A stretch of 64,000 nucleotides of DNA from NCBI GenBank assembly GCA_903813345.2, contig CAIIXF020000012.1, positions 33,058,572 to 33,122,571 on the forward strand, in the 5' to 3' direction. Under the pieces are notes generated by a model. The model ran no database searches. It had not been told where the DNA came from and saw only the letters and a list, made by a program, of their open reading frames with translations. This DNA is from Owenia fusiformis. Lineage: Eukaryota > Annelida > Polychaeta > Sabellida > Oweniidae. A program made the position numbers and the translations under genes. Shown here one piece after another: positions 14,589 through 57,290 of the stretch (position 1 is the first letter of the stretch; every line of letters begins with the position of its first letter).

Positions 14589-14779
14589 GATTTGGGAATT
14601 TTGATCAAAAAAGATTGGAATATACTGACTCTACAATAGATAAATTAATTCAATCTTTCTCATAATTTTCTATTTTATAGGATATCAGAATTAAAATCAA
14701 GAAAGGATAGAATATATTGAATACATATACTCATAAAGATAAACAAATTCAATCTTTCTCATAATTTTCTATTTTATAG
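14589..14779 (+). repeat. Acceptor-side partial copies of FKBP6 exon A (2 extra copies)
   Basis: Intron end TTCTATTTTATAG plus the exon start GATATCAGAATTAAAATCAA is present at 14681 and again, complete, at 14780, 99 bases later. A more decayed copy starts at 14589 (GATTTGGGAATTTTGATCAA). Only the copy at 14780 continues into open coding sequence and a donor. Confidence 0.75.
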
Positions 14780-17700
14780 GATATCAGAATTAAAATCAAG
14801 AAAGGATTGAATATAGGGGAGTTGCGGCAAGAGAATGGAACAACATTTGAAGTTGATGTAGATAACATGGAAGGTAGGCTCATTTAAAATAACATTTTTA
14901 TTCCTTCGATCATGGAGTTTTGTGATTTTATCAAGAGAAAGGTCTTGAAATTTAGATTTGAAATTACCTTAATGACCCTCACAGCAAGTTACTGATACAG
15001 CTCAGCTATGTTGACTTAACTTGTTTTGATGTTTAAGGGTTAGAGCAACAGACTCTGAACTGGAAGGTCCTGGGTTCAATTCCTGCACAATCGAGGCAAA
15101 AAACGAGTATTGGTCTTCATTTTACAGTTCCAATTGTGACAAAAAAGCAAACTTAACCAATAAACACAAAGAAATAAAAAAAATTATGTTGAGTTTAATT
15201 TCAGCTAGAATCTTACAAAACTATTTTTTGCATGGAAATACAAATCTATTCTCATCTCAAAAAGTAGTTTTTTTATGAATTAGTAAGACATTACTTCATT
15301 AATGAACCAAATAAAAGAGGCTTATGGCAGCCAAGGCAAAAAGCTGAGAAAAGGGCAGCCTGTTATACTTTTATGTTATTTGTGTTATGTCACTTGACTT
15401 TCAAAATAGAATCCAAAGAACTTAATACACATATTTTATTTCTGAACCAAACACTATTAATTGGGGAATACACCAAGGTTCAATATTAAGTCCTCTTTTC
15501 TTTATTGTTTAATACATGATATAAACTTATCATTGCCAAGCTCAATTTTTGTTCTTTTTGCATTAGCTGCAAAAAGCTGATAAAGTAATGCAGATTGTTA
15601 GATGATTTGAAATTATCCTGTCAACAAAAAACTTCTTTTGATAATGACTTTTTCTGAAGCAAAGGTCAGAAAGTATCTTAGTCACACTTTTAACAATAAA
15701 TGAACAATGAGTCATTGGCCAAATCAGACATTTATTTATGCACATGCAAAAAAGTATTTACAATATAAGTTGAATACTTATGAAATGATTTACAATAATC
15801 TGAAATATTTATAACAAATCTATTATTTTCTAATAAACTTATTATTTATAATAAATTGTTAAGCTAAAATGTGTGAACTATTTACATTAGAGTAGCCTAA
15901 ACTACTTTTATAAAATTGTTCTCATAATATATCATAGGTTTTGTGTCAATCAATCAATCTGGATACAGGATGTCACAAAAAGGTAGATTTTTAAATGTGA
16001 GTGCCATGACAAGAAACATGAATTCTCTGAATTTGAGAGTCTAAATTTAAGTGCCATGACAAGAAACATGAATTTTCTGAATTTGAGAGTCATATGATAT
16101 AAGTATACCATTGATTCCCCCATTGAGTGCCCTGTCAATGCATTAAAATTTGTGAAGATTTCATGACATGTGATCGAAATTCCAAAATGGAGGTTTGTTA
16201 TTTTTTGTGTCACCCTGTATAATAAATCAATTACTATATACAGGTTGTCTCAATAATGTCAATTGCTCGAATGATACAATAAAACCTGACAAATGGAATA
16301 CCTCTATAACCTATTAATCTCCCAAGGTGGTATACTTCAAAGTCTGGTAACCCAATTACATAACGTTCAAAATGAACATCTATAGAGCACCTTCCAAGTT
16401 GAATACTATTTTAAGATTAAGGTACTATAGGTGTTCATTTTCAACAGGATTTAGTGTTCATCAATGCTTACGTTCAAGATACCATCATGAAACTTTAATA
16501 TATCGGTCATTTCACGTGGGGTTTCATCAGAATGAAACCAGTAAAGTAGTTAAGATGATGATGTAAAATCCTAATTATCAGTCTTATTCATTGTGGTTGT
16601 CCATGGGAAAGGTCATATGACATTTTTCATAATCTGCCGTTCCAAATATCTATCATAACAGGCAGTTAATATCATTGATTTCTCTTAGTCATCGACCAAC
16701 CATCAGCGCCATCTTTATTTAAACCATGACAACTGACATGAGGGCAGTTAAGGCTGCAACCAACATGCTGGCAGTTTTGATCTCGGCTGAAAATAGATGT
16801 TATATAATATTACATTATATTATATTATATAATATTACATTATATTATATTATAGTGTATTATTTATATTATATTATCATTGATTTTCATCATTAAATAT
16901 TCTGTTAATGCCCTAACATATCATGACCTCGGTCTTAAAACAACACATTCAAATATGTTAATGCCCTTACATTTAATGTAATAACTATAATGCCCTTACA
17001 TTGAACACCCTTACTATTAAGCCCCTGATATTTATGTTAATGCCCTTACATTGAACACCCTAACTATTAATGCCCTGACATATATGTTAATGCCCTTACA
17101 TTGAACACCCTAACTATAATGCCTTAACATACCTCCACTGCCACCACTGCCTCCGTCATTTCCTCCGACAGTATCAGAAACTGAAGAAGCCGTGCTGCAT
17201 TTTCCCAAAAGTTTATTGGTGCTAATGGATTGGTCACCGCACATTACACAGTAGGGGGCAGAAGAGGAGCAAACGTCCAATGTTGTTGTGCCATCGCCAG
17301 AGACTTGACAAGACTCCCCAGAGTTCTTTGATGTGGAACCTGTTATTTAAAAATTAAAACACATGTCTTAGAATGAGATAAAGCATATCCTCTCTAATGA
17401 GAAAAAGCATATCCTCTCTAATGAGATAAAGCTTTGTCCTCTCTAATGAGATAAAGCATATCCTCTCTAATGAGATAAAGCATATCCTCTCTAATGAGAT
17501 AAAGCCCGGCAAGGTGGAAATAATGTTTGGTATTATATGTAACTTGAAATAATACATTCTTAATAATTAACACAAAGCTAACTATACTTACCAGTGTATA
17601 CACACATGTCCAATCCACCCAAATCATTCTGGATTGTAGCTGTGGGAAAGAGTGCATTAAAACCGTAGACCTTTTGAGCGGTGTAGTTTGTTTGGCATTG

Positions 17701-20700
17701 GCACGTGCTGTTCACGCAAACAGACAAAAAGGCGGTTGCAGAGCAGTCTGCGTCGAGTGTGCATGCGCTTCCTATTACCTCTGAAAACATTAAAAGTAAA
17801 TGTATACTAGTAACTAGGAAGTTAAATCAAAGCAAGTTTTAGAAGCTTTATGAAGACTCTCGCATGGGGATTTTCCTCAGATTTAGAATTTGAACACCAA
17901 GGTCAGACAAAGGAACTACTTACAACAAAATTACTTTGAAAGTGAATTTAAAGTTTTGGAAATGCGACCATGTATCACTTTTTCAAAAATTTGGTAACAA
18001 TGAGCATTGGTATTGATAACCAATTTGGTAACAATAAATAACAATAAGCATAGTGATAACAATGCCTATTTTGGTAAAAATGAGCATTGTTATTTATAAC
18101 CAATTTGGTAACTATAAATAACAATAAGCATAGTGATAACAATTCCTATTTTGGTAAAAATGAGCATTGTTATTTATAACCAATTTGGTAACTATAAATT
18201 ACAATAAGCATAGTGATAACAATTCCTATTTTGGTAAAAATGAGCATTGTTATTGATAACCAATTTGGTAACAATAAATAACAATAAGCATAGTGATAAC
18301 AATTCCTATTTTGGTAACAATGAGCATTGTTATTGATAACCAATTTGGTAACAATAAATTACAATAAGCATAGTGATATCAATTCCTATTTTGGTAAAAA
18401 TGAGCATTGTTATTGATAACCAATTTGGTAACTATAAATAACAATAAGCATAGTGATAACAATTCCTATTTTGGTAAAAATGAGCATTGTTATTGATAAC
18501 CAATTTGGTAACAATAAATTACAATAAGCATAGTGATATCAATGCCTATTTTGGTAAAAATGAGCATTGTTATTGATTACCAATTTGGTAACAATAAAGT
18601 ACAATAAGCATAGTGATAACAATGCCTATTTTGGTAAAAATGAGCATTGTTATTGATAACCAATTTGGTAACTATAAATTACAATAAGCATAGTGATAAC
18701 AATTCCTATTTTGGTAAAAATGAGCATTGGTATTGATAACCAATTTGGTAACAATAAATTACAATAAGCATAGTGATAACAATTCCTATTTTGGTAAAAA
18801 TGAGCATTGGTATTGATAACCAATTTGGTAACAATAAAGTACAATAAGCATAGTGATATCAATGCCTATTTTGGTAAAAATGAGCGTTGTTATTGATAAC
18901 CAATATGGTAACTATAAATAACAATAAGCATAGTGATAACAATGCCTATTTTGGTAAAAATGAGCATTGGTATTGATAACCAATTTGGTAACAATAAATT
19001 ACAATAAGCATAGTGATAACAATGCCTATTTTAGCAACAATGAGCATTGGTATTCATAACCAATTTGGTAAAAATGACCATTGTGATTACAATAAACATA
19101 CTGTTAACAATGACTATTGTTGTGACAATATACATTGTAGAAACATCCTAACGATTAACTCAGGTTATTGATAAAGATTTTGATTGGTCCTCCTGACTAG
19201 GACAAAGAAGTGCCAAAACTAAAGCAATTAACGATATATGATGGCATAATTTACGTCGTTAAAATAATGATCTATTTAAATATTTAAAGTATCAATATTA
19301 ACTTACTGTTATATTTGCATACCCCATTGACCTCCCTCTGTGAGCATACACAAGTGTTATTTGTGCATGTCTGATAAGCTGTAATAGAAAAAATATATAG
19401 GCATAAAATGTATGGGTCAAGAGTTAAGACTCTTCTGTATTGAAACAAGTGGGTGCTTGAGAAATTTAAAGAAGTCATACACCCACATGAAATGTCATTT
19501 TCACCCATTTGAAACAGAAAAATCACGACAAATTATCAATATTTTGATTTAAACTTTGTGCATTAACGCAGATGCGAGTAGGTAGTTACCAGATTCACCA
19601 CCAGGTGGCTCGTTCGGGTCAGATAGCATGGCGGGTATAGTAGAAAGTTCCCTTTAACTTAACTTACATCTATTTGCGTGCTTCAATTTTCAAATAACCC
19701 TTATGTATCTAATAGTTATGCAAATTAAAATATGTTCAGTAAAAGAAAATGTTATCTGTCCAATACAAGAGAAGAGAATTCACTTTTTGTGATTTTGTAA
19801 CATGGGGTCTATGGGGAATCAACCCGAACAAGAAGTCACATTTTCAAAAAAATTAAATTTTCAAAGATGAAAGACAATTTTCGAAACCATATTTGTAGAT
19901 GTACTTTTACATGCAGATTTCAAATATGACATCACTTTGACTGAATTTTGAATATTTAATGACATAAATCAAGATTATTTCTACTCGCATCTAGTCTTTT
20001 GTCACCCTATTACAAAAAGCTCATTGCATATTTTATCACATAATGCTAACAGAACAGCTTAATGCATAATTTGTCACATAATGCTAATAGAACAGCTTAA
20101 TGCATAATTTGTCACATAATGCTAATAGGACAGCTTAATGCATATTTTGTCACATAATGCTAAAAGAACAGCTTAATGCATAATTTGTCACATAATGCTA
20201 AAAGAACAGCTTAATGCATAATTTGTCACATACTGCTAATAGAACAGCTTAATGCATATTTTGTCACATAATGCTAATTGACAGCTTAATGCATAATTTG
20301 TCACATAATGCTAATAGAACAGCTTAATGCATAATTTGTCACATAATGCTAATAGAACAGCTTAATGCATAATTTGTCACATAATGCTAATAGAACAGCT
20401 TAATGCATATTTTGTCACATAATGCTAATAGAACAGCTTAATGCATATTTTGTCACATAATGCTAATAGGACAGCTTAATGCATAATTTGTCACATAATG
20501 CTAATAGAACAGCTTAATGCATATTTTGTCACATAATGCTAATAGAACAGCTTAATGCATAATTTGTCACATAATGCTAATAGAACAGCTTAATGCATAA
20601 TTTGTCACATAATGCTAATAGAACAGCTTAATGCGCAATTTGTCACATGATGCTAATGGAACAGCTTAATGCATAATCTGTCACATAATGCTAATAGAAC

Positions 20701-26700: not shown

Positions 26701-29700
26701 TAAGGTGGAGCACAAAATAAAAAGCCAAAAACCAATTCATACTTTGATAGGCTTTAGTAGCCCTTGAGAAAAAATTGATTTCTGATTTTTATCTTTGGAA
26801 CTTGTATCAATTTTGTTGTGTATTTTCAGAGGTGGAGCGCTATTAAAAGACAGACCAATACACTAAATAGCCCTTGTGAAAGAAAATAGCTTTTTTACTT
26901 TTATCCTGGGAACTTGTTTTTTTCAGAGGTGGAGCATTATTATATAAAGACACGAGACCAATACACTCGTACTTTGAAACATGGCTTAAATAGCCCTTGA
27001 GAAAGAAAATTGATTTCTTATTTTTATCTTGGGAACTTGTATCAGTTTTGTATATTTCCAGAGGTGGAGCGCTATACAAAGACAGAGACCAATGCACTCG
27101 TACTTTGAAATATGGCTTAAAAAGCCCTTGAGAAAGAAAATTGATTTCTTATTTTTATCCTGGGAACTTGTATCAGTTTTGTATATTTTCAGAGGTGGAG
27201 CGCTATACAAAGACAGAGACCAACGCATACTTTGATCAGGAAGATGTCTTCAAATATTCCAAGTTTCAAGAGACACATGGAGGAGGTAGCGATACTGAAT
27301 CAGGTGAGGTATTGACATCCCATAATGCAATATGCAATAGTTTACCCATAATGCATACCTGGGGGTAGTAATCGTTGAGTTAGATGAGGTATGAACATCC
27401 CATAATGCAATAAAGTAAGATAAGTCTACCCATGATGCAAACCTATGGGAAGTATATGTATACCAATAATACACCTTCGGAGAATAATAATTGTGAGTCA
27501 GCTGAGGCATTAATTAAAAAACTGTACTCGTATTCATGATGATTTTTTACGTAAGTGATCATTTAATGTTTAGTTTTTCACAACAATGATGATTTTTTAT
27601 GCCATCACCAAAAAGTGTTATTGTCTCCTTTTTGTGACAGCAGTTGGCGAATGGCGGTTGGTGTCTGTAACAAATGGGGGTGTCATTTTGCATGTAAATG
27701 CCTTGTCTACATAAGTGTTCATTTTATTATGTCCCCACCACATAGTGTTGGTCCATATTGTCGGCCCAGGTGCGTCCGTTTGTCAGTCCGTCCATCCATC
27801 CGTACATCCGGCAGTTAACATAAGTTCATTTTATGTTATGTTTTATCCGAAGGCGATGACACTGATGACCTCAGCCCATTTGAAAAGCTTGGAAGAAAAA
27901 TGGAAGATATTACCGAGGAAAAAAATGGAGGAGTCTTAAAGAAAGTTCTGACACCTGGCCATGGTCCCCTCTGTCCTGAAGAAGCATCTGTATTAGGTAA
28001 TGGCTTAACTGTATTAGATAAGTTATGGTTTATCTGTATAAAGTGAGTGGGTTTAACTGTAAATAAGTTGAGAAGGGTTTAACTGTAAATAAGTTGAGTA
28101 GGGTTTAACTGTAAATAAGTTGAGTAGGGTTTAACTGTAATTAAGTTGAGTAGGGTTAAACTGTATGATGTAAGTAGGGTTTAAATGTATTTAGTGATTA
28201 GGGTTTAACTGTATTAAATAGGTAAGGGTTTAACTGTATTAGGTGAATAGCGTTCTTAAAACTGCATATATTGCATTATATTTTATGTTTTCAGTGCATT
28301 AAACTGTATATTTTCAGTGTATTATACTAAACATAACATGTTTTCAGTGCATAAATTATATTTCAGTGCACTTCAATGGTTACCTTGAATATAAGGACGA
28401 GCCATTTGATTCAATGCATAAATTATATTTCAGTGCACTTCAATGGTTACCTTGAATATAAGGATGAGCCATTTGATTCAATGCATAAATTATATTTCAG
28501 TGCACTTCAATGGTTACCTTGAATATAAGGATGAGCCATTTGATTCAATGCATAAATTATATTTCAGTGCACTTCAATGGTTACCTTGAATATAAGGATG
28601 AGCCATTTGATTCAATGCATAAATTATATTTCAGTGCACTTCAACGGTTACCTTGAATATAAGGATGAGCCATTTGATTCAATGCATAAATTATATTTCA
28701 GTGCACTTCAATGGTTACCTTGAATATAAGGATGAGCCATTTGATTCAATGCATAAATTATATTGCAGTGCACTTCAATGGTTACCTTGAATATAAGGAT
28801 GAGCCATTTGATTCAATGCATAAATTATATTTCAGTGCACTTCAATGATTACCTTGAATATAAGGATGAGCCATTTGATTCAATGCATAAATTATATTGC
28901 AGTGCACTTCAATGGTTACCTTGAATATAAGGATGAGCCATTTGATTCAATGCATAAATTATATTTCAGTGCACTTCAATGGTTACCTTGAATATAAGGA
29001 TGAGCCATTTGATTCAATGCATAAATTATATTGCAGTGCACTTCAATGGTTACCTTGAATATAAGGATGAGCCGTTTGATTCAATGCATAAATTATATTT
29101 CAGTGCACTTCAACGGTTACCTTGAATATAAGGACGAGCCGTTTGATTCAATGCATAAATTATATTTCAGTGCACTTCAATGGTTACCTTGAATATAAGG
29201 ACGAGCCGTTTGATTCAATGCATAAATTATATTTCAGTGCACTTCAATGGTTACCTTGAATATAAGGACGAGACCTTTGATTCAATGCATAAATTATATT
29301 TCAGTGCACTTCAACGGTTACCTTGAATATAAGGATGAGCCATTTGATTCAATGCATAAATTATATTTCAGTGCACTTCAATGGTTACCTTGAATATAAG
29401 GACGAGCCATTTGATTCAATGCATAAATTATATTTCAGTGCACTTCAATGGTTACCTTGAATATAAGGACGAGCCATTTGATTCAATGCATAAATATATT
29501 TCAGTGCACTTCAACGGTTACCTTGAATATAAGGATGAGCCATTTGATTCAATGCATAAATTATATTTCAGTGCACTTCAATGGTTACCTTGAATATAAG
29601 GACGAGCCATTTGATTCAATGCATAAATTATATTTCAGTGCACTTCAATGGTTACCTTGAATATAAGGACGAGCCATTTGATTCAATGCATAAATTATAT

Positions 29701-32700
29701 TTCAGTGCACTTCAATGGTTACCTTGAATATAAGGATGAGCCATTTGATTCAATGCATAAATTATATTTCAGTGCACTTCAATGGTTACCTTGAATATAA
29801 GGATGAGCCATTTGATTCAATGCATAAATTATATTTCAGTGCACTTCAATGGTTACCTTGAATATAAGGATGAGCCATTTGATTCAATGCATAAATTATA
29901 TTTCAGTGCACTTCAATGGTTACCTTGAATATAAGGATGAGCCATTTGATTCAATGCATAAATTATATTTCAGTGCACTTCAATGGTTACCTTGAATATA
30001 AGGATGAGCCATTTGATTCAATGCATAAATTATATTTCAGTGCACTTCAACGGTTACCTTGAATATAAGGATGAGCCATTTGATTCAATGCATAAATTAT
30101 ATTTCAGTGCACTTCAATAGGTACCTTGAATATAAGGATGAGCCATTTGATTCAATGCATAAATTATATTTCAGTGCACTTCAACGGTTACCTTGAATAT
30201 AAGGATGAGCCATTTGATTCAATGCATAAATTATATTTCAGTGCACTTCAATGGTTACCTTGAATATAAGGATGAGCCATTTGATTCAATGCATAAATTA
30301 TATTTCAGTGCACTTCAATGGGTACCTTGAATATAAGGATGAACCATTTGATTCAATGCATAAATTATATTTCAGTGCACTTCAATGAGTACCTTGAATA
30401 TAAGGATGAGCCATTTGATTCAATGCATAAATTATATTTCAGTGCACTTCAACGGTTACCTTGAATATAAGGACGAGCCATTTGATTCAATGCATAAATT
30501 ATATTTCAGTGCACTTCAATGGTTACCTTGAATATAAGGATGAGCCATTTGATTCAATGCATAAATTATATTTCAGTGCACTTCAATGGTTACCTTGAAT
30601 ATAAGGATGAGCCATTTGATTCAATGCATAAATTATATTTCAGTACACTTCAACGGTTACCTTGAATATAAGGATGAGCCATTTGATTCAATGCATAAAT
30701 TATATTTCAGTGCACTTCAATGGTTACCTTGAATATAAGGATGAGCCATTTGATTCAATGCATAAATTATATTTCAGTGCACTTCAATGGGTACCTTGAA
30801 TATAAGGATGAACCATTTGATTCAATGCATAAATTATATTTCAGTGCACTTCAATGAGTACCTTGAATATAAGGATGAGCCATTTGATTCAATGCATAAA
30901 TTATATTTCAGTGCACTTCAATGGTTACCTTGAATATAAGGACGAGCCATTTGATTCAATGCATAAATTATATTTCAGTGCACTTCAATGGTTACCTTGA
31001 ATATAAGGATGAGCCATTTGATTCAATGCATAAATTATATTTCAGTGCACTTCAATTGTTACCTTGAATATAAGGATGAGCCATTTGATTCAATGCATAA
31101 ATTATATTTCAGTGCACTTCAATGGTTACCTTGAATATAAGGATGAGCCATTTGATTCAATGCATAAATTATATTTCAGTGCACTTCAATGGTTACCTTG
31201 AATATAAGGATGAGCCATTTGATTCAATGCATAAATTATATTTCAGTGCACTTCAACGGTTACCTTGAATATAAGGATGAGCCATTTGATTCCAGCCGAC
31301 TACGGAACAAGCCAGACAGAATAAAACTTGGAGGTCAGTATGTTGTGGAATAATTCAAGAACCCAATCTGATAAAAGAAATGGTTATTGGTCGCTATAAG
31401 CCTATTAAATATTGATTGATGTACAATGTATATTCCTGTGTAATTGTTATACAGTAATTGTACTCCAATAATTGTTATACAGTAATTGTAATACAAAGTC
31501 TGTAAAGTGTAAAGAGACTTTATGGACTTTTGTTTTTAAGAAAATGAATTTAGATCTTACCTCCTGACCAATCCCAACTTAACAATCTTTCTGATTTTAC
31601 AGTTTTGGAATTTATTTCCTACATCTGCTTGAGGCCTGCCCCCTTCGATATATCCCTTTGGATTGTTTTAATACAATGAAACCTGTATATCTGGACACCT
31701 TTCTATTCCACACACCTGTTAATGTTAACACTTTTTCTCAGTCCCAAACTTGGCTTGAAATGTGAACACCTGCTAATGTGAACACTTGCAAATGTGAACA
31801 CCAGCTAATCGGAACATTTTTGGCTGGTCCCAGAGGTGTCCGGATGAGACTGTCAGGCCCGTAGCCAGGATTTGCCAAGGGTGTTCACTTTTTGAAATAT
31901 TCCAGGGGGGTTCACTTTTGACAATTTGGGTCCAAAAATGGCGAAAATCACTTAAAAAGTGTTCAGAATGATGAAAAACTGCATGATTTTGAAAGAATCC
32001 TCCCCCGAACCCCCCCTGGATAGGGCCTGACTGTAATATTTTTATTGTTCCATTCTAGACTGTATACTTGGCTGGACCATAGGAATCAAAACAATGAAGA
32101 AAGGTGAACTGTCACGCTTCATAATCAGATCTGACTATGGATGGGGTCCACAAGGCTGTCCCCCTAGAATACCAGAAGATTCTACAGGTAGACCATCATT
32201 TTTGTTATACCTTAAGATTTGTTTTTGTATCCCACTGAACATAGTTTGTGAGGAATATGGAGAAGACGTCTTTCTGTGTGGAGTTTGGGTGGGTGATATC
32301 TCAAATATCGGTCAATAGATTTGGTTCTTATATTTTTGCACATACTTATTTTTTTTTATTTATTTATCACAAGATAAATTCTCTGTACCTACTGGCTAAA
32401 TATTCGATTCTTTCATGGTATAATATGTTACGTTATCGAACCATTTTATCACCAGTTTTATCCTGTAATGGCAAAGGTCGCATTCTGGCTATTCCTAAAA
32501 GGGCACTGTATTCCTTCTAAAGAATGCACATCCCTAAAGAGTGCCCATGTGACTATTATGACAAATGCGGTGTTGGCGAAATTGAAAATTGAATTACCTT
32601 CATGTGAGATTTTACCCCTTTCCAACAGGGCTTTGAACTTTTTTGATATATTTCTGATTACATTTGATGTTAAAGAAAGTAAATGAGAGCCATAGAGTTT

Positions 32701-35700
32701 TCATAACATAGTGATAACAGCTAAACTGAAATTGAAAATCAGGTATTCATTGATTTTTAGAGATTTTTGTTGATATGAAAATTTAGTTTTTTGCTCATGT
32801 TTGATTAATTGTACTTTAATACGTTAGCTCGTTCACTAATATGTTGTTATTATTAGCTATTGTAATGATCCACTTGTCTGAAAATTTAGTTTTTGGGCAT
32901 ATACAAGGTGTCCCATAAGTAATGATAATTATGCTCTAATATTTTGAAGGAAACATTGTGGGTTATATAATATTTATTTATTTCGACTTTATATTTTTAC
33001 AATTTTACATTAAACCAATCATTGAGATTGTTCACATTGAACTGATTGTTTTATTGAACTGATTCTTTATTTTAGTTATGTTTGAGATTGAGCTGATTGA
33101 AGCATTTGCAAGGGCAGGTGTTGACGACTACGAGAGCACTCCAATGGTGAGAGATTTGAATTTGAATTTGGTGGGAACAATGACAAATCTGGACCTTTTT
33201 CACTGGCTCGTTACCATTTTACTTTTACTCAGATTTTATCAGTGTTAATAAAATTTAGCGTTATTCCTCTCAGTATGAGTAAGCATATCTGTAAAAATAA
33301 ATCAAAAATATTGTAAACAAACGATGTCTTGTTACTGAGTGGGGTATTTTGTGGATCCATAGATTCAATTTCGATTTTTATTTTTTTCAATTTGCAATAG
33401 TTTGATGCAAAATCCTCGTAAAATCCATAGTTTTTAAATCACAAAATCCACAATCTTATTTGCGAAATTTTGAAAAAAGCAAATTTCTGAGGGGACATTA
33501 TTGAATAACAGATTATTTCACACTTTTTCAGTCTGAGAGGAAATTCCTTCCATTTGAAAAGATCTACATGGCTGCTCACAGTGCTAAAGATGTAAGTATA
33601 GTCACCCTGCATAGTAACAATGTTTAGTGGATAACTGTTTTTAGGGGATAGCCATCTTGGGGATAACTATATTTAGGGATAACCATGTTCACAGATAATC
33701 ATCTTTCACACTTAATCCCATATCTTAATGAATGTAATTTGATGAAAAAAACTATAAAAAATTATGTTATGTTTCCATGTTGGTGGGCAGGCATCACATC
33801 TTGTCATCAAAATTCAAGGAAAAGGATATGTTCAACATTTGAGCCAGGCCACAGGAAAAGGGGTCTTATTACAGATTTTTCAATGTTTTGATTTTTTGTT
33901 TTTCTTAAAAAGCACAAAGAGACCTTTCAAATGAGCCATGGTTTGTGTCTTAACAATTTTTCCTTGCAGATATAGACCATAAAGACTGATTTTAATTTAG
34001 CACATTTTCCTTTTAATCTTGGGCACATTTTTGGCTCTGTAGCAAAATTTAAATTTTTGTGACAAGACTGGTTTTCCTATGGCCAGGCTCATTAAATGTT
34101 TACAGAGTAAAGAGCAGACGTACTGCAGCCAATTTGCAACAGTAATGTATGGTACTGTTTTGACTATGGCACTGTACAGTACCATGAAATATGGTACCAT
34201 AGACAAAAATGGTACCGTGAACGGTGTAATTGATGCCATACTCAAACAGTACCATACAGTACCATACTCTTAATGGTACCGTGATCTCAGAGTGTGGATT
34301 GGGGTGTAGAGCTAAAATCTGCAAACTTTAAGAAAAACGGCTTCACAGTTGCTTTTAAAACTTTAAGATCTTGTTCAGCTCACTTCATTCTAGATGTGAT
34401 TAGGTTTTGGACCTGTAAGCTCAGTCATGTCAGCCATTTTGAATGTCTTAAGAAAAGTTAGCGCGCGATAATACTTTGTATCATATTGAATGGTGTTTTT
34501 GAGTTTTCATACTTAAACTATTTAGTAGCTTTATAAATAATTTCAGATGTACTTTGTTGTAAAAGCCTATGTTATTGTTAACAGTACTTATATGTGATAA
34601 TTTTGTAAAAAGAAATCAGCAAAAACTAAGACTTTTTTATTGTCGGCCATTTTGGATTTTTTGGTCCTAAAATCTTGTCTGTGAAGTCTTGTCTGCGCGT
34701 TTTCAGGTGAACCGTTTGGTGGATCAATTTCAAATTTTCAGGGATGATTCTTAGTATGACAGTCTAGATCTGATAAGTTTTTTGGCATTCTGGGTAAATG
34801 TCAAGGCAGCCATTTTGGATTTTCCGTCCTGAAATCTTGTCTGTAAAGTCTTGTCTACGCATTTCCAGGTGAACCGTTCTGTAGATCAATTTCAAATTTT
34901 CAGGGATGATTCTTAGAATGAAAATCTAGATCTGATTAGTTTTTTGGCATTCTGGATAAATGTCAAGGCAGCCATTTTGTATTTTCCATCCTGAAATCTT
35001 GTCTGTAAAGTCTTGTTTACATGTTTTCTGGTTAACTGTGTGACGGATCAATTTCAAATTTTCAGGGGTGGTTCTTAGTATGAAAATCTAGAACTGACTA
35101 AATTTTTGCCATTCTGGATAAATTTTAAGGTGGCCATTTTGGATTTTTCGTCCTCAAATAGTGTTGGTAAAGTCTTGTCTACTCATTTTCAGGATAACCA
35201 TTTGACGGGATCACCCATTGGTGGGGACATTTTGTACACATTTGTGTTCTTGTGATTTCTTAGTTAAAAAGTGTGATCACTTTGTGTCTTGTTTGTTATT
35301 AATTAGTAAATCTACTTCTTTTTATTCAGGAAGCTAAGACACATTATCACAATGGTCACTACAGACAAGCATCCAGAAAATATGAGAAGGTATGTTTGTA
35401 ATTTGAAAATGTTAAACCTAAATTGAACCATTATCCCTTAAACGGCAGATATGCCCCCTCCCCTAAATGTTGGTGTAATTCTCTATAGTGTAACTGTTTA
35501 TTAGGCTTAACACAGTATTTTACGTAAGAATGTCAATAAATACAAATTAAACTTAAATCATTTGTCAAATGTGCAAGATGAAATTGCTTGTGAAATTCTT
35601 TATTACTTGTAATTATCTACAACTTGCAATTATGTGTAAAACCAATATAACAGTAACCCTTGCAAGTGAAATGCCCTAGGGACCCCAAAAAGTGTTCCAC

Positions 35701-38700
35701 TTGGGAGGTGTTCCACTTACAGAGGTTCAATTACCTGCAGTCAATGGGCTGCAGGACTTTTAGAAACCCTTTCTACTTGTGAGGTGTTCACCTGGGCAGT
35801 TTCTACTGTACTTACTTGTATAAGAAGCAAGAACATCTCAAAGGGACACTGTCGCTATTAGTATCCATGCATCCTCTGCTTGTATTACTATGATCTAAAA
35901 ACAATGCATACTTTAGGCTTTGTCACCCATTTGAGCCAGATTCACACATTTTAGAATCATACATTTTAGGCTATTCGAATACTGGAAGAGTGTTGTTTAA
36001 GAAATGATGATGAAGAAAGAAAACAGCAAGAAATGTTAAAGGTATGTACCTTTAAGGGCCTTCGAATGACAACTGTCAATTTTGAATTTCGTAAGCACGA
36101 CCATTCTTCAAGATTGGCCTTATTCAAGGGTTTGTTTGATACCCTGGGCTTATAGTTAGTATGAATTCGGAACAAAAGGAAAGAATATCGCTATATGGCA
36201 TTCTGGGAGCCAATTACAATGTGATATAATATTGAAGAGCCAGGTGTCGTCTGCTACTAAACATATTGCATTATGGGTAATATTTGTTTCAGACACTCTA
36301 CTTGAATTGTGCCACCTGTAAGGATAAACTCTCCAGCCCAAAGCCAGTGATAACATTGTGTAATAAAGCTCTAGAGATTGATAAAGATTCCGTCAAAGCA
36401 TATTATCTATTAGGAGTGGTGAGTATTACCCACAATTCCTCCCTAGATTGACACTTCTTAGCAGTACTATACTGCAGCAAATAAACTCGAAATATTTCAC
36501 CCAAACCTGGTAAAGCTCTAGAGATTGATAAAGATTCCGTCAAAGCATATTATCTATTAGGAGTGGTGAGTATTACCCACAATTCCTCCCTAGATTGACA
36601 CTTCTTAGCAGTACTATACTGCAGCAAATAAACTCGAAATATTTCACCCAAACCTGGTAAAGCTCTAGAGATTGATAAAGATTCCGTCAAAGCATATTAT
36701 CTATTAGGAGTGGTGAGTATTACCCACAATTCCTCCCTAGATTGACACTTCTTAGCAGTACTATACTGCAGCAAATAAACTCGAAATATTTCACCCAAAC
36801 CTGGTAAAGCTCTAGAGATTGATAAAGATTCCGTCAAAGCATATTATCTATTAGGAGTGGTGAGTATTACCCACAATTCCTCCCTAGATTGACACTTCTT
36901 AGCAGTACTATACTGCAGCAAATAAACTCGAAATATTTCACTCCTCTAATCAAGGCTTTCAATAGAGACAAGATTGTATTTTGTTTCCAAATGTCTTCAA
37001 TAGTGCATCAACAGAAACATATTTACTTTTGGGACCAGATGCATATATTCCAAAGTGCATAAGTAAATTGTGCTATGAAATATAGATTAAAAATGCCTTT
37101 AGCTTTTAATCACACGTGTTAGGTTGTTGTCATCTTGGGTTGATGTTTGTGCGTTCATGCATCTGGGCAGACAGGTGTCACCTAAATCTTGTCGCCAAAT
37201 TCCGTGCATTACAAGAGCCAAGATCTGATTAGATTTTGGCCAGGCTTGGTTAATTACTTGGTGGCCATTTTGAATTTTTTGATAAAGAAGTGCGATATTT
37301 ATCTCTGTGTATCTTGTTCTTGCAGGCTTATTTAAGACTTGGTGATTTCACAGCAAGTAGGAAGAAGCTGATGGTTGCCAGGAAATTAAAACCTCAGTTT
37401 AAATGTGTTTCCAAGGCACTCGCAGAACTGGAAAGGTATGTCGTCTGCTAAAAAACTATTGCATAATGGGATACCTATTTTGCTTTCTTCGGATTTGAAT
37501 GTGTTTTCAAGGCATTTGCAGAACTAGGAAGCTTTGTAGTCTGCTAAATGATTTATTGCATTATGGGATACTTTTTGCATTATGGGATTGAAATGCCATT
37601 CCAAGGCTCATTCCAAGGTAATCCAATGCTGGGAGAAGTCAAATAATTTGATGTTGTTTGTAGTTATGGAAATTTCAAATTTTATATGTGCCTACTTAAA
37701 AGCATATTACAATTTCTGATGACAATTTAGCTATATAGTGAGCTATACACTTCGTTTGTAAATATGCCAGCCATGGCTGTTTGATGGGACTTGCTACGCT
37801 TTGGCGTTGCTGATGTCTAGTTGATATTAAATTTCTCTTGTCTATTCATATCCAGTGTAGAAAAACAGCTTCGGAATGAGGAGGCAGCAATGTACAAACG
37901 AATGATCTCAGGAGCGGGTAAGAATGAGGAAAATGAGACGGGAAGGTCTGTGACCCAGAGGACAAATCTTCCCCCAGACAGTGTCGATCAGCTCGACCCT
38001 GAATATAAAGCCAACATTAAGACACGAATACAGTAAGTAAAATGAGTGAATATACATATAACACTAGTTCTTAGAGTTAAAGTTTATAGATCAAATTTCC
38101 TTTTGATTATTTCACCACCAGAGGTGGTGACATATTGTGATAGTCTCTAACTTTTTTTGTGGCTGGTGTTTGGCGTCTGTAACAGTGTTCAATGTCTGTA
38201 ACAGCGTTCGGCACCAGTTTGGGACCAGTATGAATAAAAAAAATTGATCAAAGGAAAGATATTTGTGTTCCAAAAGTATACATCTTGAGGGTGTTCAATT
38301 AAAGGAGTTAATACTTGTTACATTTATCCGATATTAATGTTGTAGAGCCTTCAAACACAACCAAGATCTGGACAGTCTAGATATTGGGTCTCTAGGAATG
38401 ACCCCTGTTGAGATTGCATACATCATAGATCTAGCAGAGGAACTTGGGATTGAATGGAAAGAGTATGGAACGGTATGTATTTCCCATCATTCCTTTCTAC
38501 CCATAATGCAATTCATTCTGCAGACGTGATGTTTTACATCATAGATATAGCAAAGTAACCTGGGATAGAGTGGAAGGAGAAAACTGCATGTATTTCCCAT
38601 AATGCAATGCAAATCACAAACCATGTTCTTGGGATATGATCCCAGCATGCATTTCCATGGTAACATGGTTATACAAAGGTTAAATGGCACATTCTTCTAG

Positions 38701-46286: not shown

Positions 46287-46366
46287 AAAGGGCTAGGCAC
46301 AAACGTTTTCTGTACCCTGAACGACCAAAGGGAGTGAGGGGTTCGAAAGCTTTTGTGCCTAGCCCT
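46287..46366. repeat. Hairpin GGGCTAGGCACAAACG
   Basis: AGGGCTAGGCACAAACGTTT pairs with AAGCTTTTGTGCCTAGCCCT across about 40 bases. Probably a tiny MITE. Confidence 0.65.
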
Positions 46367-46692: not shown

Positions 46693-46729
46693 AGTCTGTA
46701 TTTGTGTAAAGTTTACACAAATACAGACT
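46693..46729. repeat. Perfect 18-bp-arm palindrome
   Basis: AGTCTGTATTTGTGTAAA, one G, then TTTACACAAATACAGACT. Nearby ACTTTATGGACAC repeats suggest it belongs to a small repeat; a related AAAGTCTGTAAAGTGTAAAG lies at about 31496. Confidence 0.85.
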
Positions 46730-49502: not shown

Positions 49503-52500
49503 ATGGTAGACGGCGACAATAATACAACTAGCACATTTTCAGCCACGAATCTTACTTTATTTGGGCTTCGTAAGAAATTCCCAGGCGTTGAAAATGTGTC
49601 AACTTCAACTCTGCAAAAGTGGATGGAACCCGGAAGTGAAATCAACTCTGAAGCAGGAATTCATCATAAGTGCTCAAATTTACTTATTTTGGTATGTAAG
49701 CTTATTATTCAGATCGTGGGCTCTGTATCATTGGGTTTCAAGAAATGACCATGTAAGGGCTCCCCAAGAGGGTAGACTATATCCTATTTAGTCTGAATTA
49801 TATTCAGACTATAAGGCACCTATGTTAAAGTTTGGTAATGTGAAATATTTGTTTACATAGGAAGTGCTATTCAAAATGGTCGATTGGTAAAATTAATTTG
49901 CACATTTGTTACTTCAACTAGCTTTATTTCCACTTGACAATATGCTGTGTTACTTTTTATTGCATTTAATTGTACCTTACTATTTAATTGAAATTTTGTA
50001 ATGTTTATTTTATTGAAAAAATGGTTCCTCTAATTGATAATTTTGTGCAAAAAATTTCACTGCAATTTCCACAGGAAAGTAGTACATCATAACAGACTGA
50101 CTTCTAGTCAGTCTGTTGGATACATACTACCCAAGAGGGGGCAGTGAGGTTGCTTTAGTCACTTTTAAATCCAAAATTGGTCACAATCATTCCTTTTTAG
50201 TCAGTCAAAACATTTAATGCAACAAGTGGTCTGTTATGTTCCACAGGTTGAATACTTATTAGAATAGGTCGCCTTTATTTACATTCAGAACAAATTGTCT
50301 ATTTTTGTATTTTTCGAAACCCTTGTCAGTCAGATTATTGGGGCGGGCAGATCGTTTATCGTAAGCATGGCATGGCAACTTTGTAATAAACAACTGACGT
50401 GACGTGATTGGTTCTTGTCTCATGCTGGTTTCACGTGATTGTAAAATCTAGACATGTTCATTGGTTGGATTGCACGTATTAACTAATAAACGCACGTGCG
50501 GTGAAACATTATCAACAAGACTTTTCACTCTAAATCCTACCGCGTATATTTCTTCTTATATTTCTTGATTTTCGGGACATTTTGACAAAATAAGGATTGG
50601 GGAACGTAAAAGAATATATATTTTATAAGTTTTGTGAAAATTGAGTATCTCCTGTGATGAAAACGGGGACTATCTTCTCCAAATTTTGGTGATTTCTTCA
50701 TCTGCCTACCGCAGTGTCTATTCCGAAACACTGTATGGGAGTTTGTCAGATCATTGTACAAAATTGTCACTTGCAAGCATTGATTTGTTGCATTTGTTCG
50801 TTTTTAGATACCCCCAAGTCACATTTGGTCACATTTTAGAGGCCAGGTCACCTTGTCACTTGTCACATACTAGTACCACTTGGGGAGCCCCCATGTTCAT
50901 ATCACAGGGACTTGTATCAACACCTGACATCTATTGGGCAACCTGGAAGACAAAGACCATGTATTCTTTAACTAAACCTCAATATACATTGATGTCTTAT
51001 TACAGGATACACGGCCAGAAGAAGAATACAAAATAAGTCATTTGCCAGGTGCTCTACGGCTACAACCTGATGCTACGGATGAACAAATAAAGTCCCTTCT
51101 CGAAGCAGAAAATGCTTTCAATAACTCAAGTAATGATGGTAAGGAATGTCATCAGTTGTGGGAAAACAAAAAATTAATTTTAATATGGGAAGAGTGTAAT
51201 TGGTAAATACCTGGTGATATCTAATGATTAATTAGTGACAAAAAAAACAATTTCAACAATTCAAATTTTGTTAAGGGGGAAGAAAGAGGCTACACTATAG
51301 GGGGCCCACTATATTGTCAATTTTTACAGATCATAATTGGACACGACCCTGAGGTTTGCAGCGGTTTGCTAAAAGCACGTCAGGCATAAGGTTCCATGGT
51401 AAACAGCATGATGTCAAGATTATCAGAATGTAGTCCAACAACATTAGACCTAGTCAGGGGCCTCGTTTCTTATCTGACATGTCTTTTGGCCCTGACTAAT
51501 CCAGCCCAAAGTAAGATCAGATTAATGAATCAGAATGAAGCATGGGATAACAACATAACACAATGTATCTTTTAATTCATTGCTTCCATGTTAAATCATT
51601 AAAATATGTTTCTATTCTGTTAAATATTTTATATTCCAGATGTGACTAGAATAGTGTGTTACTGTTCTGTTGGGTACAGGTCATCTGCAATGGCTACAAA
51701 ACTGATGGCACTTTAGGAAAATGTTTTACATTCCAGATGTGACTAGAATAGTGTGTTACTGTTCTGTTGGGTACAGGTCATCTGCCATGGCTTTAAAACT
51801 GATGACACTTGAGGAAAATGCTTTACATTTCAGATGTGACTAGAATAGTGTGTTACTGTTCTGTTGGGTACAGGTCATCTGCAATGGCTACAAAACTGAT
51901 GACACTTCAGGAAAATGTTTTACATTCCAGATGTGACTAGAATAGTGTGCTACTTTTCTGTTGGGTACAGGTCATCTGCCATGGCTTTAAAACTGATGAC
52001 ACTTGAGGAAAATGCTTTACATTTCAAATGTGACTAGAATAGTGTGTTACTGTTCTGTTGGGTACAGGTCATCTGCAATGGCTACAAAACTGATGACACT
52101 TTAGGAAAATGTTTTACATATCAGATGTGACTAGAATAGTGTGCTACTGTTCTGTTGGGTACAGGTCATCTGCAATGGCTACAAAACTGATGACACTTTA
52201 GGAAAATGTTTTACATTTCAGATGTGACTAGAATAGTGTGTTACTGTTCTGTTGGGTACAGGTCATCTGCAATGGCTACAAAACTGATGACACTTTAGGA
52301 AAATGTTTTACATATCAGATGTGACTAGAATAGTGTTTTACTGTTCTGTTGGGTACAGGTCATCTGCATGACTACAAAACTGATGACTCTTCAGGAAAAT
52401 GTTTTACATTCCAGATGTGACTAGAATAGTGTTTTACTGTTCTGTTGGGTACAGGTCATCTGCAATAGCTACAAAACTGATGACACTTCAGGAAAATGTT

Positions 52501-55500
52501 TTACATTCCAGATGTGACTAGAATAGTGTGCTACTGTTCTGTTGGGTACAGGTCATCTGCAATTGCTACAAAACTGATGACACTTTAGGAAAATGTTTTA
52601 CATTCCAGATGTGACTAGAATAGTGTGTTACTGTTCTATTGGGTACAGGTCATCTGCCATGGCTACAAAACTGATGGCACTTCAGGAAAATGTTTTACAT
52701 TTCAGATGTGACTAGAATAGTGTGTTACTGTTCTGTTGGGTACAGGTCATCTGCAATGGCTACAAAACTGATGACACTTCAGGAAAATGTTTTACATTTC
52801 AGATGTGACTAGAATAGTGTGTTACTGTTCTATTGGGTACAGGTCATCTGCAATGGCTACAAAACTGATGGCACTTCAGGAAAATGTTTTACATTTCAGA
52901 TGTGACTAGAATAGTGTGTTACTGTTCTATTGGGTACAGGTCATCTGCCATGGCTACAAAACTGATGGCACTTCAGGAAAATGTTTTACATTTCAGATGT
53001 GACTAGAATAGTGTTTTACTGTTCTGTTGGTTACAGGTCATCTGCAATGGCTACAAAACTAATGACACTTGAGGAGAATGTTTTACATTTCAGATGTGAC
53101 TAGAATAGTGTGCTACTGTTCTGTTGGGTACAGGTCATCTGCAATGGCTACAAAACTAATGACACTTGAGGAGAATGTTTTACATTTCAGATGTGTCTAG
53201 AATAGTGTTTTACTGTTCTGTTGGGTACAGGTCATCTGCAATGGCTACACAACTGATGACACTTTAGGAAAATGTTTTACATTTCAGATGTGACTAGAAT
53301 AGTGTGCTACTGTTCTGTTGGGTACAGGTCATCTGCCATGGCTACAAAACTGATGACACTTCGGGAAAATGTTTTACATTTCAGATGTGACTAGAATAGT
53401 GTGTTACTGTTCTGTTGGGTTCAGGTCATCTGCAATTGCTACAAAACTGATGACACTTCAGGAAAATGTTTTACATTTCAGATGTGACTAGAATAGTGTG
53501 CTACTGTTCTGTTGGGTACAGGTCATCTGCAATTGCTACAAAACTGATGACACTTTAGGAAAATGTTTTACATTCCAGATGTGACTAGAATAGTGTGTTA
53601 CTGTTCTATTGGGTACAGGTCATCTGCCATGGCTACAAAACTGATGGCACTTCAGGAAAATGTTTTACATTTCAGATGTGACTAGAATAGTGTGTTACTG
53701 TTCTGTTGGGTACAGGTCATCTGCAATGGCTACAAAACTGATGACACTTCAGGAAAATGTTTTACATTTCAGATGTGACTAGAATAGTGTGTTACTGTTC
53801 TATTGGGTACAGGTCATCTGCAATGGCTACAAAACTGATGGCACTTCAGGAAAATGTTTTACATTTCAGATGTGACTAGAATAGTGTGTTACTGTTCTAT
53901 TGGGTACAGGTCATCTGCCATGGCTACAAAACTGATGGCACTTCAGGAAAATGTTTTACATTTCAGATGTGACTAGAATAGTGTGTTACTGTTCTGTTGG
54001 TTACAGGTCATCTGCAATGGCTACAAAACTAATGACACTTGAGGAGAATGTTTTACATTTCAGATGTGACTAGAATAGTGTGCTACTGTTCTGTTGGGTA
54101 CAGGTCATCTGCAATGGCTACAAAACTAATGACACTTGAGGAGAATGTTTTACATTTCAGATGTGACTAGAATAGTGTTTTACTGTTCTGTTGGGTACAG
54201 GTCATCTGCAATGGCTACACAACTGATGACACTTTAGGAAAATGTTTTACATTTCAGATGTGACTAGAATAGTGTGCTACTGTTCTGTTGGGTACAGGTC
54301 ATCTGCCATGGCTACAAAACTGATGACACTTCGGGAAAATGTTTTACATTTCAGATGTGACTAGAATAGTGTGTTACTGTTCTGTTGGGTTCAGGTCATC
54401 TGCAATTGCTACAAAACTGATGACACTTCAGGAAAATGTTTTACATTTCAGATGTGACTAGAATAGTGTGTTACTGTTCTGTTGGGTTCAGGTCATCTGC
54501 AATTGCTACAAAACTGATGACACTCCAGGAAAATGTTTTACATTTCAGATGTGACTAGAATAGTGTGTTACTGTTCTGTTGGGTACAGGTCATCTGCAAT
54601 TGCTACAAAACTGATGACACTTTAGGAAAATGTTTTACATTACAGATGTGACTAGAATAGTGTGTTACTGTTCTATTGGGTACAGGTCATCTGCCATGGC
54701 TACAAAACTGATGACACTTGAGGAAAATGTTTTACATTTCAGATGTGACTAGAATAGTGTGTTACTGTTCTGTTGGGTACAGGTCATCTGCAATGGCTAC
54801 AAAACTGATGGCACTTCAGAAAAATAACTGTAAGTTAAGAATATGATCATACTTTTCGTTGAAACAGGCCAGGTAAATTAAAAATTTGAGTTTCTATACC
54901 TAGTAATAATAAATATCAATGGAATTCATTGAAAAGATGTCTGAATGAATATTTGTCTGTAAAAGTAATGAAAGGCAAATTGCCTGCCATGCATGCCTCA
55001 TGTCTGTGTTATGCCAGTCTCATGTCTGTGTTATGCCTGCCTCATGTCTGTGTTATGCCTGCCTCGTGTCTGTGTTATGCCTGCCTCATGTCTGTGTTAT
55101 GCCTGCCTCATGTCTGTGTTATGCCAGTCTCATGTCTGTGTCATGTCTGCCTCATGTCTGTGTTATGCCTGCCTCATGTCTGTGTTATGCCTGCCTCATG
55201 TCTGTGTTATGCCTGCCTCATATCTGTGTTATGCCTGCCTCATCTCTGTGTAATGCCAATCTCATGTCTGTGTTAGGCCTGCCTCATGTCTGTGTTATGC
55301 CTGCCTCATATCTATGTTATGCAAGTCTCATGTGTGTGTTATGCCTGCCTCATGCCTGTGTTATGCCTGCCTCTTGTCTGTCTTATGCCTGCCTCATATT
55401 TGTGTTATGCCTGCCTCTTGTCTGTCTTATGCCTGCCTCATATCTGTGTTATGCCTGCCTCATGTCTGTGTTATGCCTGCCTCATGTCTGTGTTATGCCT

Positions 55501-56406
55501 GCCTCATGTCTGTGTTATGCCTGCCTCATGTCTGTGTTATGCCTGCCTCATGTCTATGTTATGCCAGTCTCATGTGTGTGTTATGCCAGCCTCATGCCTG
55601 TGTTATGCCTGCCTCTTGTCTGTGTTATGCCTGCCTCATATCTGTGTTATGCCTGCCTCATGTCTGTGTTATGCCTACCTTATGTGTGTGTTATGCCTGC
55701 CTCATGTCTGTGTTACGCTTACCTCATGACTGTGTCATGTCTGCCTCATGTCTGTATCATGCCTGCCTGTCTGTGTTATGCCTTCCTCATATCTGCATTA
55801 TGTCTGCCTTACATCTGTGTCATACCTGCCTCTTGTCTGTGTCATTTCTGTGTCATTCCTGCCACATGTCTGTGTCATGCCTGCCACATGTCTGTGTCAT
55901 GCCTGCCACATGTCTGTGTTATGCCTGCCTCACATCTTTGTCATACCTGCCTCTTGTCTGGGTCATGTTTCTGTTAAATGTCTGTCTCATGTCTGTACCT
56001 CCCAAGATTTTTGGTAGATAAATTGTATGAATATATATTCCAACAAGGAAACAGTATTTGCATACAGAAATATCTGTCATATTCATGCTCACCAAAAAAA
56101 GGAAAAAGTAAAAAAAGATCACTGATCTTTAGTGCATCTGTTCAGATATACGCTCCCTCGGGATAAATCCCATATCTAACCCCCAAGTATACAGTCCTTA
56201 TGTAATTCATTCATATATTTGCAGGTCCAAGTGCTAGCTCCTTTAAGACAACCAAGATCTTCAACTTAGAAGGGAGCATATTTAAATGGGCAAATGAGGG
56301 CAGAGCAATGGTAGATTATGAGCAAAGACAGACAATACATGCACACCCTTATAGCGCAATATGGGGCAAACTATTGAACAGTGAACTTAGGAAATCTTCA
56401 TTATGA
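49503..56406 (+). CDS. Single-domain rhodanese (sulfurtransferase-like) protein, 4 exons
   Basis: Exons 49503-49691, 51006-51138, 54743-54829, 56225-56406; 591 nt, 196 aa and TGA. Phases 0, 1, 1 match across all joins. Exon 1 has LRKKFPGVENVSTSTLQKWM and the first strand LLIL; exon 2 continues DTRPEEEYKISHLPGALRL, the CH2A region; exon 3 gives IVCYCSVGYRSSAMATKL, the active-site loop with Cys before SVGYRS; exon 4 gives KIFNLEGSIFKWANEGR, the CH2B region, and HPYSAIWGKLL. This end and the KFP...STxxLxxW start resemble single-domain rhodanese proteins I associate with bacteria and some algae and animals. A persulfide-transfer role is expected from the Cys; the substrate is unknown. Exons 3 and 4 are both amplified in tandem arrays beside them. 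Confidence 0.88.
49692..51005. promoter_or_regulatory. Rhodanese intron 1 with a promoter-like patch at 50340-50500
   Basis: The patch holds GGGGCGGGCAG, two CCAAT-type ATTGG boxes (GATTGGTT, CATTGGTTGG), TGACGTGACGTGATTGG, TTTCACGTGA and CGCACGTGCG in otherwise AT-rich sequence. It could be an internal promoter or enhancer. The open frame at 50641-51036 has no domain. This call is tentative. Confidence 0.3.
51640..54742 (+). repeat. 97-bp array made from rhodanese exon 3, about 32 extra copies
   Basis: Each unit is the acceptor GTTTTACATTTCAG followed by almost the whole of exon 3 (ATGTGACTAGAATAGTGTGT through AAACTGATGACACTT). From 51640 to the intact exon at 54743 is 3103 bases, 32 periods of 97. 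Only the last copy ends AAAATAACT|GTAAGT; the others run CAGGAAAATG into the next acceptor. Many upstream copies have CTTTAG, an in-frame stop, where the last has CTTCAG. A 10-unit (970-base) higher-order period is seen, for instance 52511 against 53481. Confidence 0.95.
54985..55990 (+). repeat. 22-bp minisatellite CTCATGTCTGTGTTATGCCTGC, about 45 copies
   Basis: Lies in rhodanese intron 3. Because 22 is not a multiple of 3 and the unit has no stop in any frame, long frames open in all three registers (for example 55000-55977). These are repeat by-products, not genes. Later units drift (ATATCTGCATTATG, GCCACATGTCTGTG). Confidence 0.95.
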
Positions 56407-56444
56407 AACTATGCAATATTGGGCAAAACTAATGAATAGTGATG

Positions 56445-57290
56445 TTTGGTTTAAACTATAGTGGACTATGAACAAAGATAGACAATATATACACACCCTT
56501 ATAGCACAATATGGGGCAAACTATTGAACAGTGAACTTAGGAAATCATCATAATGAAACTATGGTGTGACTATGAAATAACATAGACAATATATGCACAC
56601 CCTTATAGTGCAATATGGGGCAAACTATTGAACGGTGAACTTAAGAAGTCATCATTATGAAACTCTGGTAGACTATGAACAAACATAGACAATATATGCA
56701 CACCCTTATAGCACAATATGGGGCAAACTATTGAACGGTGAACTTAAGAAGTCATCATTATGAAACTCTGGTAGACTATGAACAAAGATAGACAATACAT
56801 GCACACCCCTATAGCTCAATATGGGGCAAACTATTGAACGGTGAACTTAGGAAATCATCATAATGAAAATCTGGTTGACTATTAACAAACATAGACAATA
56901 TATGCACACCCTTATAGCACAATATGGGGGAAACTATTGAACGGTGAACTTAAGAATTCATCATTATGAAACTCTGGTAGACTATGAACAAAGATAGACA
57001 ATACATGCACACCCCTATAGCTCAATATGGGGCAAACTATTGAACGGTGAACTTAGGAAATCATCATTATGAAACTCTGGTTGACTATGAACAAAGATAG
57101 ACAATAGATGCACACCCTTATATATGGGGCAAACTATTGAATAGTGAACTTAGGAAAATCATCATTATGATGTTTGGTAAACTATAGTGGACTATGAACA
57201 AAGATAGACATTATATGCACAGCCATAGAGTGCAAAATGGGGCAAAACTAATCAATAGTGAAGTTAAGAAATCATTACTATGATATGTGG
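56445..57290 (+). repeat. 103-bp array made from the last rhodanese exon, about 8 copies, in the 3' flank
   Basis: After the stop at 56406, the coding stretch from GACTATGAACAAAGATAGAC through GCACACCCTTATAGC and GGGGCAAACTATTGAACAGT to TTAGGAAATCATCATTATGA recurs, with GCACACCC at 56491, 56595, 56698, 56801, 56904, 57007, 57110 and 57218. Most spacings are 103 bases. Copies include the stop codon (ATTATGAAA) and a piece of what follows it. Frameshifts and changes in the copies show they are not translated. Confidence 0.9.

Follow-up and report, generated by a model that had tools for sequence, protein, structure and literature searches.

Tandem arrays across exon–intron borders of the annelid Owenia fusiformis resemble the mirages of amphioxus

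In the genome of the annelid Owenia fusiformis, tandem arrays lie across the splice edges of many unrelated genes, and their repeated unit consists of a piece of an exon joined to its own intron edge. They are described here from a stretch of 64,000 nucleotides (G000:C12:33058572-33122571, hereafter the window), which holds an FKBP6-like gene on the plus strand (~14.8 to 38.5 kb) and exons 2–4 of a rhodanese gene (between ~51.0 and 56.4 kb), and from a sample of loci elsewhere in the genome. The arrays are real and recurrent, and they belong to a kind of minisatellite that has already been named: by their sequence they appear to have the structure of the "mirages" of amphioxus, in which tandem units extend across an exon–intron boundary (PMC3087553, PMC3902484). 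The explanation favoured here, with a probability of about 0.8, is that they are mirage-type minisatellites, which are tolerated since an intact exon is left at the end of each array.

Arrays were detected by Tandem Repeats Finder (TRF) together with direct reading, and 28 splice edges of the window were tested (24 of the FKBP6-like gene and four of the rhodanese gene, with rhodanese exon 1 and the exon 2 donor left out). Seven of these edges are duplicated, four of them acceptors (exons A, B, D and rhodanese exon 3) and three donors (exons J, K and M). At A, B, D, J and rhodanese exon 3, both TRF and reading reveal arrays with units of 67–147 bp, each composed of an exon piece and its own intron edge. 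In all five, the terminal unit (the last or the first) leads into the real exon, which is intact there, so that for these arrays an earlier note on the window, made from the letters alone, was right to place the intact exon always in the end unit. The same note counted eight exon-edge arrays; five stand as arrays, K and M are single old copies, and rhodanese exon 4 drops out for want of a junction. The K and M copies fall under the TRF threshold and were recognized by local alignment, with scores of 37 over 55 bp for K (best of 200 shuffles, 18) and 44 over ~72 columns for M (best of 200 shuffles, 17.5).

Acceptor-side arrays had also been said to carry AG without GT, and donor-side arrays GT without AG. 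This fails literally: GT occurs in three of the four acceptor-side units (five in B, two in D and nine in R3, the unit of rhodanese exon 3, with none in A), the donor-side J unit contains 12 AG, and both dinucleotides are present in four of the five units counted. What remains of the claim is that each unit, spanning a single edge, holds a single consensus splice site. With the real site included, the decoy AG is kept in 44/44 copies of D, 32/33 of R3, and 24/25, 9/9 and 18/18 of the arrays at the sampled loci L019, L007 and L043, and the donor GT is kept in 4/4 copies of J; L008b and L049c are cut one base off the junction and hence offer no test of GT retention. The column conservation of exonic and intronic parts is 0.980 and 0.984 in D, 0.959 and 0.975 in R3, 0.970 and 0.997 in L019, and 1 and 1 in J, and the donor has been lost from the older copies of K and M, a pattern that fits nearly neutral decay. 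A genome search with the D unit, of a type that can miss common words, returned 21 matches, all 21 inside its own array; occurrence at many unrelated loci, the mark of a dispersed satellite or transposable element, was thus not found for D, the one unit searched, and the D array is of local origin. The exonic share of the unit averages 0.56 over 23 units and does not depart from a uniform distribution (Kolmogorov–Smirnov P 0.14), indicating no preferred breakpoint, and inspection of the flanks gave no clear pattern of microhomology at the duplication joints.

The frequency of such arrays was estimated from 88 loci (295,040 bases, 338 hidden Markov model (HMM) hits; the main test could use 675 boundaries), chosen via the exon-marking Pfam families CCT, tRNA synthetases, myosin, kinesin and SNF2; aldehyde dehydrogenase (PF00171) and AMP-binding (PF00501) gave few usable multi-exon matches and were therefore left out. 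Reading of the 23 candidates from the first 64 loci led to the acceptance of 20 as spanning a splice edge, two of these 20 (L004 368-428 and L020) holding only four exonic bases. The rejected candidates were L007 3607-3649 (ambiguous, period 18), L026 5026-6123 (acceptor unresolved) and L054 2736-2846 (stops short of the acceptor). In the 24 SNF2 loci, all four crossing arrays were accepted, two of which are paralogous copies. Altogether 24 arrays of both acceptor and donor kinds were accepted outside the window, at ~24/675 exon boundaries, and the phenomenon is therefore not special to the window. Their units measure 28–159 bp, they occur in CCT, tRNA synthetase, myosin, kinesin and SNF2 genes, and their copies match at 76% to 100%, a recurrence that fits the earlier suggestion of a continuing process. 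In the kinesin locus L043 (G000:C2:23266200-23269950), 18 units of 159 bp each comprise an acceptor and ~127 bp of exon, with the intact exon at the end; its junction scored below the automatic cut-off and was accepted on reading. The repetition at L043 is directly visible as repeated protein-model matches, as is the acceptor-side array (137-bp unit, 4.8 copies) in the SNF2-family gene L073 (G000:C2:4913874-4918169). The neighbouring SNF2 paralogues L079 (G000:C2:7807074-7809627) and L080 (7836439-7839462) have a 119-bp acceptor-side array in common, which would be either older than the gene duplication or copied along with the gene.

In amphioxus, mirages are described in Adh3 and in the globins BflGb6 and BflGb9, and are also reported for troponin C and PGBD5, with units of 10–72 bp in Adh3 and 150–160 bp in the globins; somatic length instability and undisturbed splicing are reported for them (PMC3087553, PMC3902484). 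Mirages have been proposed there as a source of new introns (PMC3087553). The O. fusiformis arrays likewise have tandem units of minisatellite size, with overlapping unit lengths; the exon–intron boundary spanned by the unit may be an acceptor or a donor, the authentic exon stands at one end of the array, and AG or GT persists in many units. The host is an annelid instead of a cephalochordate, which concerns the range described so far and is no trait of the structure, and the arrays in O. fusiformis reach 44 units and occur at many genes at once. The Pfam family Eryth_link_C, whose name refers to the linkers of annelid giant haemoglobins, has four matches in this genome, all in one cluster; a search of the assembly for COX1 (PF00115) found no match. 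The view of the earlier note that no named system does this can thus no longer be held; on the other hand, no account of a mirage-like structure outside amphioxus, and so none from this host, was found in open-licence PubMed Central papers under the terms used. Intron gain by tandem genomic duplication, reportedly seen in potato RdRp through duplication of an AG/GT proto-splice site, resembles the arrays in being a local tandem duplication that copies splice signals, but no new intron is seen in the O. fusiformis arrays, where the copies stay within the existing intron. Tandem mutually exclusive exons, which occur for example in myosin heavy chain genes, also consist of adjoining copies of exon sequence, but the inner units of the present arrays are not complete exons because each of them lacks one of the two splice sites. 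At G000:C9:37986009-37994334 (minus strand), twelve tandem matches to one part of the myosin head (positions ~18–84) likely correspond to the alternative exon set of a muscle myosin heavy chain.

According to the mirage-type explanation, a short stretch spanning an exon–intron junction (~28–159 bp) would first be copied in head-to-tail orientation, and slippage or unequal exchange would then multiply the copies. As the duplication spans one edge only, the original exon is left whole at the far end of the array. The inner units are all incomplete exons, each with a lone acceptor or donor that has no partner, and should for that reason be passed over by exon definition; the gene would presumably be spliced correctly, and the array would drift nearly neutrally inside the intron. 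Some observations weigh against this explanation. At L049, the exonic columns are far better kept than the intronic ones (0.997 vs 0.793), a gap absent from D, R3, L019 and J; it may stem from constraint or from the register of the count, the period being 55 or 110. At rhodanese exon 4, the array is built from the last ~100 bp that code for protein together with the stop codon and 3' DNA, and no junction is crossed; the spanning of a border is therefore no rule even within the window. Boundary-crossing arrays are also about twice as frequent as random placement would predict, which neutrality and tolerance leave unexplained unless retention differs.

The size of this excess depends on how arrays are counted. 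Per base, edges are less covered than introns: in the window, where duplication was taken as at least 80% identity over a length of 30 bp, 6/28 edges are duplicated, compared with 43% in a random set of 2000 intronic positions, and in the sampled loci TRF arrays cover 6/118 of the inferred splice edges, compared with 15.2% of the intronic positions (24,460 in all), and 35/675 HMM boundaries vs 12.2% of non-exon DNA. Amplification, however, inflates the number of intronic bases. In a seed count, each array was collapsed to one unit, for which any placement was allowed except inside exons. For the window this gives 4 crossings at the 24 FKBP6 edges vs 1.13 expected (P 0.028) and 1 at the four rhodanese edges vs 0.43 (P 0.35), but the window was picked for its arrays. 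In the first 64 loci without L043, 17/40 arrays with units of at least 30 bp cross a boundary vs 6.82 expected (P 0.00005), both at 96% matches or more (9/19 vs 3.55) and at lower identity (8/21 vs 3.28); units of 15–29 bp show no excess in these loci (1/36 vs 0.52). When the five families are pooled, 22/54 arrays cross vs 10.55 expected (P 0.00016). L043 and L073 had been seen to hold arrays before they were fetched and L080 is paralogous to L079, so that pooled tests were made with and without them; without all three, 19/51 arrays with units of at least 30 bp cross vs 9.44 (P 0.0008). The lists omit some HMM matches, namely 17 decoy copies of L043, four of L073 and five others (one each in L002, L008 and L077, two in L012), and with these five restored the pooled count is 18/49 vs 9.32 (P 0.0016) and that of SNF2 4/12 vs 3.20. 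Dropping four doubtful rows, with fewer than 8 exonic bases or an unresolved edge, leaves 15/49 vs 9.32 (P 0.026), and omission of the kinesins leaves a P of 0.037; the ratio of observed to expected crossings is 2.5 in CCT, 1.4 in tRNA synthetases, 2.7 in myosin, 2.6 in kinesin and 0.8 in SNF2.

The HMM-boundary test both over- and undercounts, as HMM ends are not exact exon ends; it misses L011, for example, although that array was accepted. A stricter test on inferred splice edges, which skips junctions without a confident splice pair (e.g. 25 neighbouring hit pairs, plus 28 in the SNF2 set), yields 11/232 edges crossed vs 3.45 expected (Poisson P 0.0009); the SNF2 share is 2/52 vs 0.62, one of the two being L073, by a measure that was added afterwards and not pre-specified. 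The pre-specified replication on SNF2 loci showed no excess, with 4/13 arrays crossing vs 3.22 expected (P 0.41), 3/12 vs 2.84 without the locus already known to hold an array, and 2/11 vs 2.61 after exclusions. For units of at least 30 bp, the excess lies on the edge itself, with 3 arrays less than 25 bp away vs 3.1 expected, and for units of at least 15 bp there is some excess also within 25 bp (10 vs 6.0, as high in 31 of 400 simulations). Arrays of fewer than 2.6 copies, which are nearest to first duplications, show little excess (4/12 vs 2.31, P 0.16). Base composition was considered as a cause of the excess and rejected: the guanine–cytosine content of non-crossing arrays is 34.0% vs 33.0% for their mostly intronic surroundings (crossing arrays, 37.4%; exons, 41.8%). 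The ~2-fold excess at borders is thus suggestive, and it failed its one pre-specified replication. The earlier proposal that duplications start at borders finds backing in the pooled seed and splice-edge counts of the 88 loci and none in the SNF2 set or in the per-base depletion, and shrinks when the doubtful rows are removed; a border-seeking process is suggested rather than demonstrated.

Several other explanations bear on this excess. The genome might simply be rich in minisatellites, with arrays everywhere and some of them on edges by chance, those within exons being purged and those crossing an edge tolerated; this is a serious alternative, at somewhat less than even odds. It agrees with the TRF coverage (30% of the window and 12% of sampled non-exon DNA), the lower per-base coverage of edges, the SNF2 replication and the near lack of excess among arrays of few copies, but not with the seed counts, whether or not the five omitted matches are restored, nor with the splice-edge count or, for units of at least 30 bp, the position of the excess on the edge instead of beside it. 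A mutational bias, by which duplications start or expand preferentially at exon–intron borders, is doubtful: borders would then be mutational hot spots in O. fusiformis, where a process acting across unrelated genes starts or expands arrays at roughly double the rate of other non-coding positions. The ~2-fold excess in seed counts of five pooled families, found in high- and lower-identity arrays alike and unexplained by composition, argues for such a bias, whereas the SNF2 loci without excess, the weakening of P when the kinesins or the doubtful rows are removed, the lack of a preferred unit breakpoint and the small excess among arrays of few copies argue against it, and we know of no mechanism for border-directed duplication. 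Were the process true, it would supply raw material for new introns and a test of exon definition. An edge excess would presumably also result, without any special process, if exon-anchored arrays escaped the large deletions that remove purely intronic ones; this is unlikely, as the edge-crossing arrays are not older than the others (median matches 96% in 17 arrays vs 94% in 23 others, Mann–Whitney P 0.29).

The two remaining explanations concern the nature of the arrays themselves. A regulatory job of the decoy sites in splicing is highly improbable. The six arrays that were counted in register retain AG or GT in almost every copy, but they are young; in D, R3, L019 and J, conservation of the splice core does not exceed that of the remaining unit, the old K and M copies have lost their donor, and reading on from a D decoy leads to a stop after 29 codons. 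Assembly errors are more improbable still; long near-identical arrays are difficult to assemble, but the arrays contain many distinct unit variants (97% matches in D and 95% in R3) and show like anatomy in many genes.

Mirages have been described as a peculiarity of amphioxus (PMC3087553); their occurrence in an annelid means that they either are more widespread among animal genomes rich in minisatellites or originated more than once. With up to 43 near-identical decoy acceptors, the arrays offer natural experiments on how decoys are passed over in splicing, and in an annotated genome the question of border-seeking duplication becomes directly countable.

The exons of both genes and the arrays and old copies at their edges are listed in Table 1. 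A single open frame and agreeing splice phases across FKBP6 exons A–G and across I–M support the exons, and no exon H was found between G and I. Pfam matches were obtained to FKBP_C (4.1e-21), TPR_17 (1e-6) and Rhodanese (8e-13). In a structure search, the solved FK506-binding protein 6 aligns to residues 68-197 (1.3e-31), and FKBP4, with two FKBP domains and TPRs, outscores it overall; FKBP6 is for this reason a likely gene name and not a proven one.

Table 1. Exons, arrays and old copies in the window (positions counted from the first base of the window)
Feature	Position	Strand	Basis
Exon A acceptor-side array: ~99-bp unit, 2.6 copies; intron tail + TTTTATAG + exon start	14569..14815	+	TRF; +/-15 bp edge copied exactly at -99
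Exon A (DIRIKIKKGLNIGELRQENGTTFEVDVDNME..)	14780..14873	+	open frame, splice sites, phase match to exon B
Exon B acceptor-side array: 131-bp unit, 2.2 copies	26941..27227	+	TRF
Exon B	27193..27303	+	phase-consistent
Exon C, leads into FKBP domain; edges without array	27853..27996	+	
Exon D acceptor-side array: 67-bp unit, 44 copies, 97% matches	28343..31292	+	TRF
Exon D, intact end unit (VHFNGYLEYKDEPFDSSRLRNKPDRIKLG)	31247..31333	+	
Exon E, FKBP domain; edges without array	32059..32187	+	
Exon F; edges without array	33076..33146	+	
Exon G; edges without array	33532..33591	+	
Exon I; edges without array	35970..36041	+	
Exon J (TPR), intact first unit of donor-side array	36293..36418	+	
Exon J donor-side array: 147-bp unit, 3.9 copies, 100% matches	36364..36941	+	TRF
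Exon K (TPR)	37326..37435	+	
Exon K edge (37398-37452): single old donor-side copy, GTATG decayed to CTTTG	37494..37548	+	local alignment
Exon L; edges without array	37856..38032	+	
Exon M	38346..38472	+	
Exon M edge (38419-38490): single old donor-side copy, donor decayed	38535..38603	+	local alignment
Rhodanese exon 3 acceptor-side array: 97-bp unit, 33 copies, 95% matches	51622..54825	+	TRF
Rhodanese exon 3 (VTRIVCYCSVGYRSSAMATKLMALQKNN), intact end unit including donor	54743..54829	+	
Rhodanese exon 4, last coding exon, ends ..LRKSSL; listed end takes in first two stop-codon bases	56225..56405	+	
Array of exon 4 coding end + 3' DNA: 103 bp x 8; no splice junction crossed	56453..57283	+	TRF; alignment to exon 4

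Large minisatellites without an identified exon-edge crossing are located at 3827-5589, 12843-13906, 17990-19075, 20018-21070 and 54989-55967 of the window. On the minus strand between both genes, an open stretch of 359 codons (47465-48541), apparently a single exon, encodes several leucine-rich repeats (LRR_4, 6.5e-24). The intron between FKBP6 exons A and B contains several cysteine-rich open frames, also on the minus strand (17113-21309), which possibly represent a nested gene.

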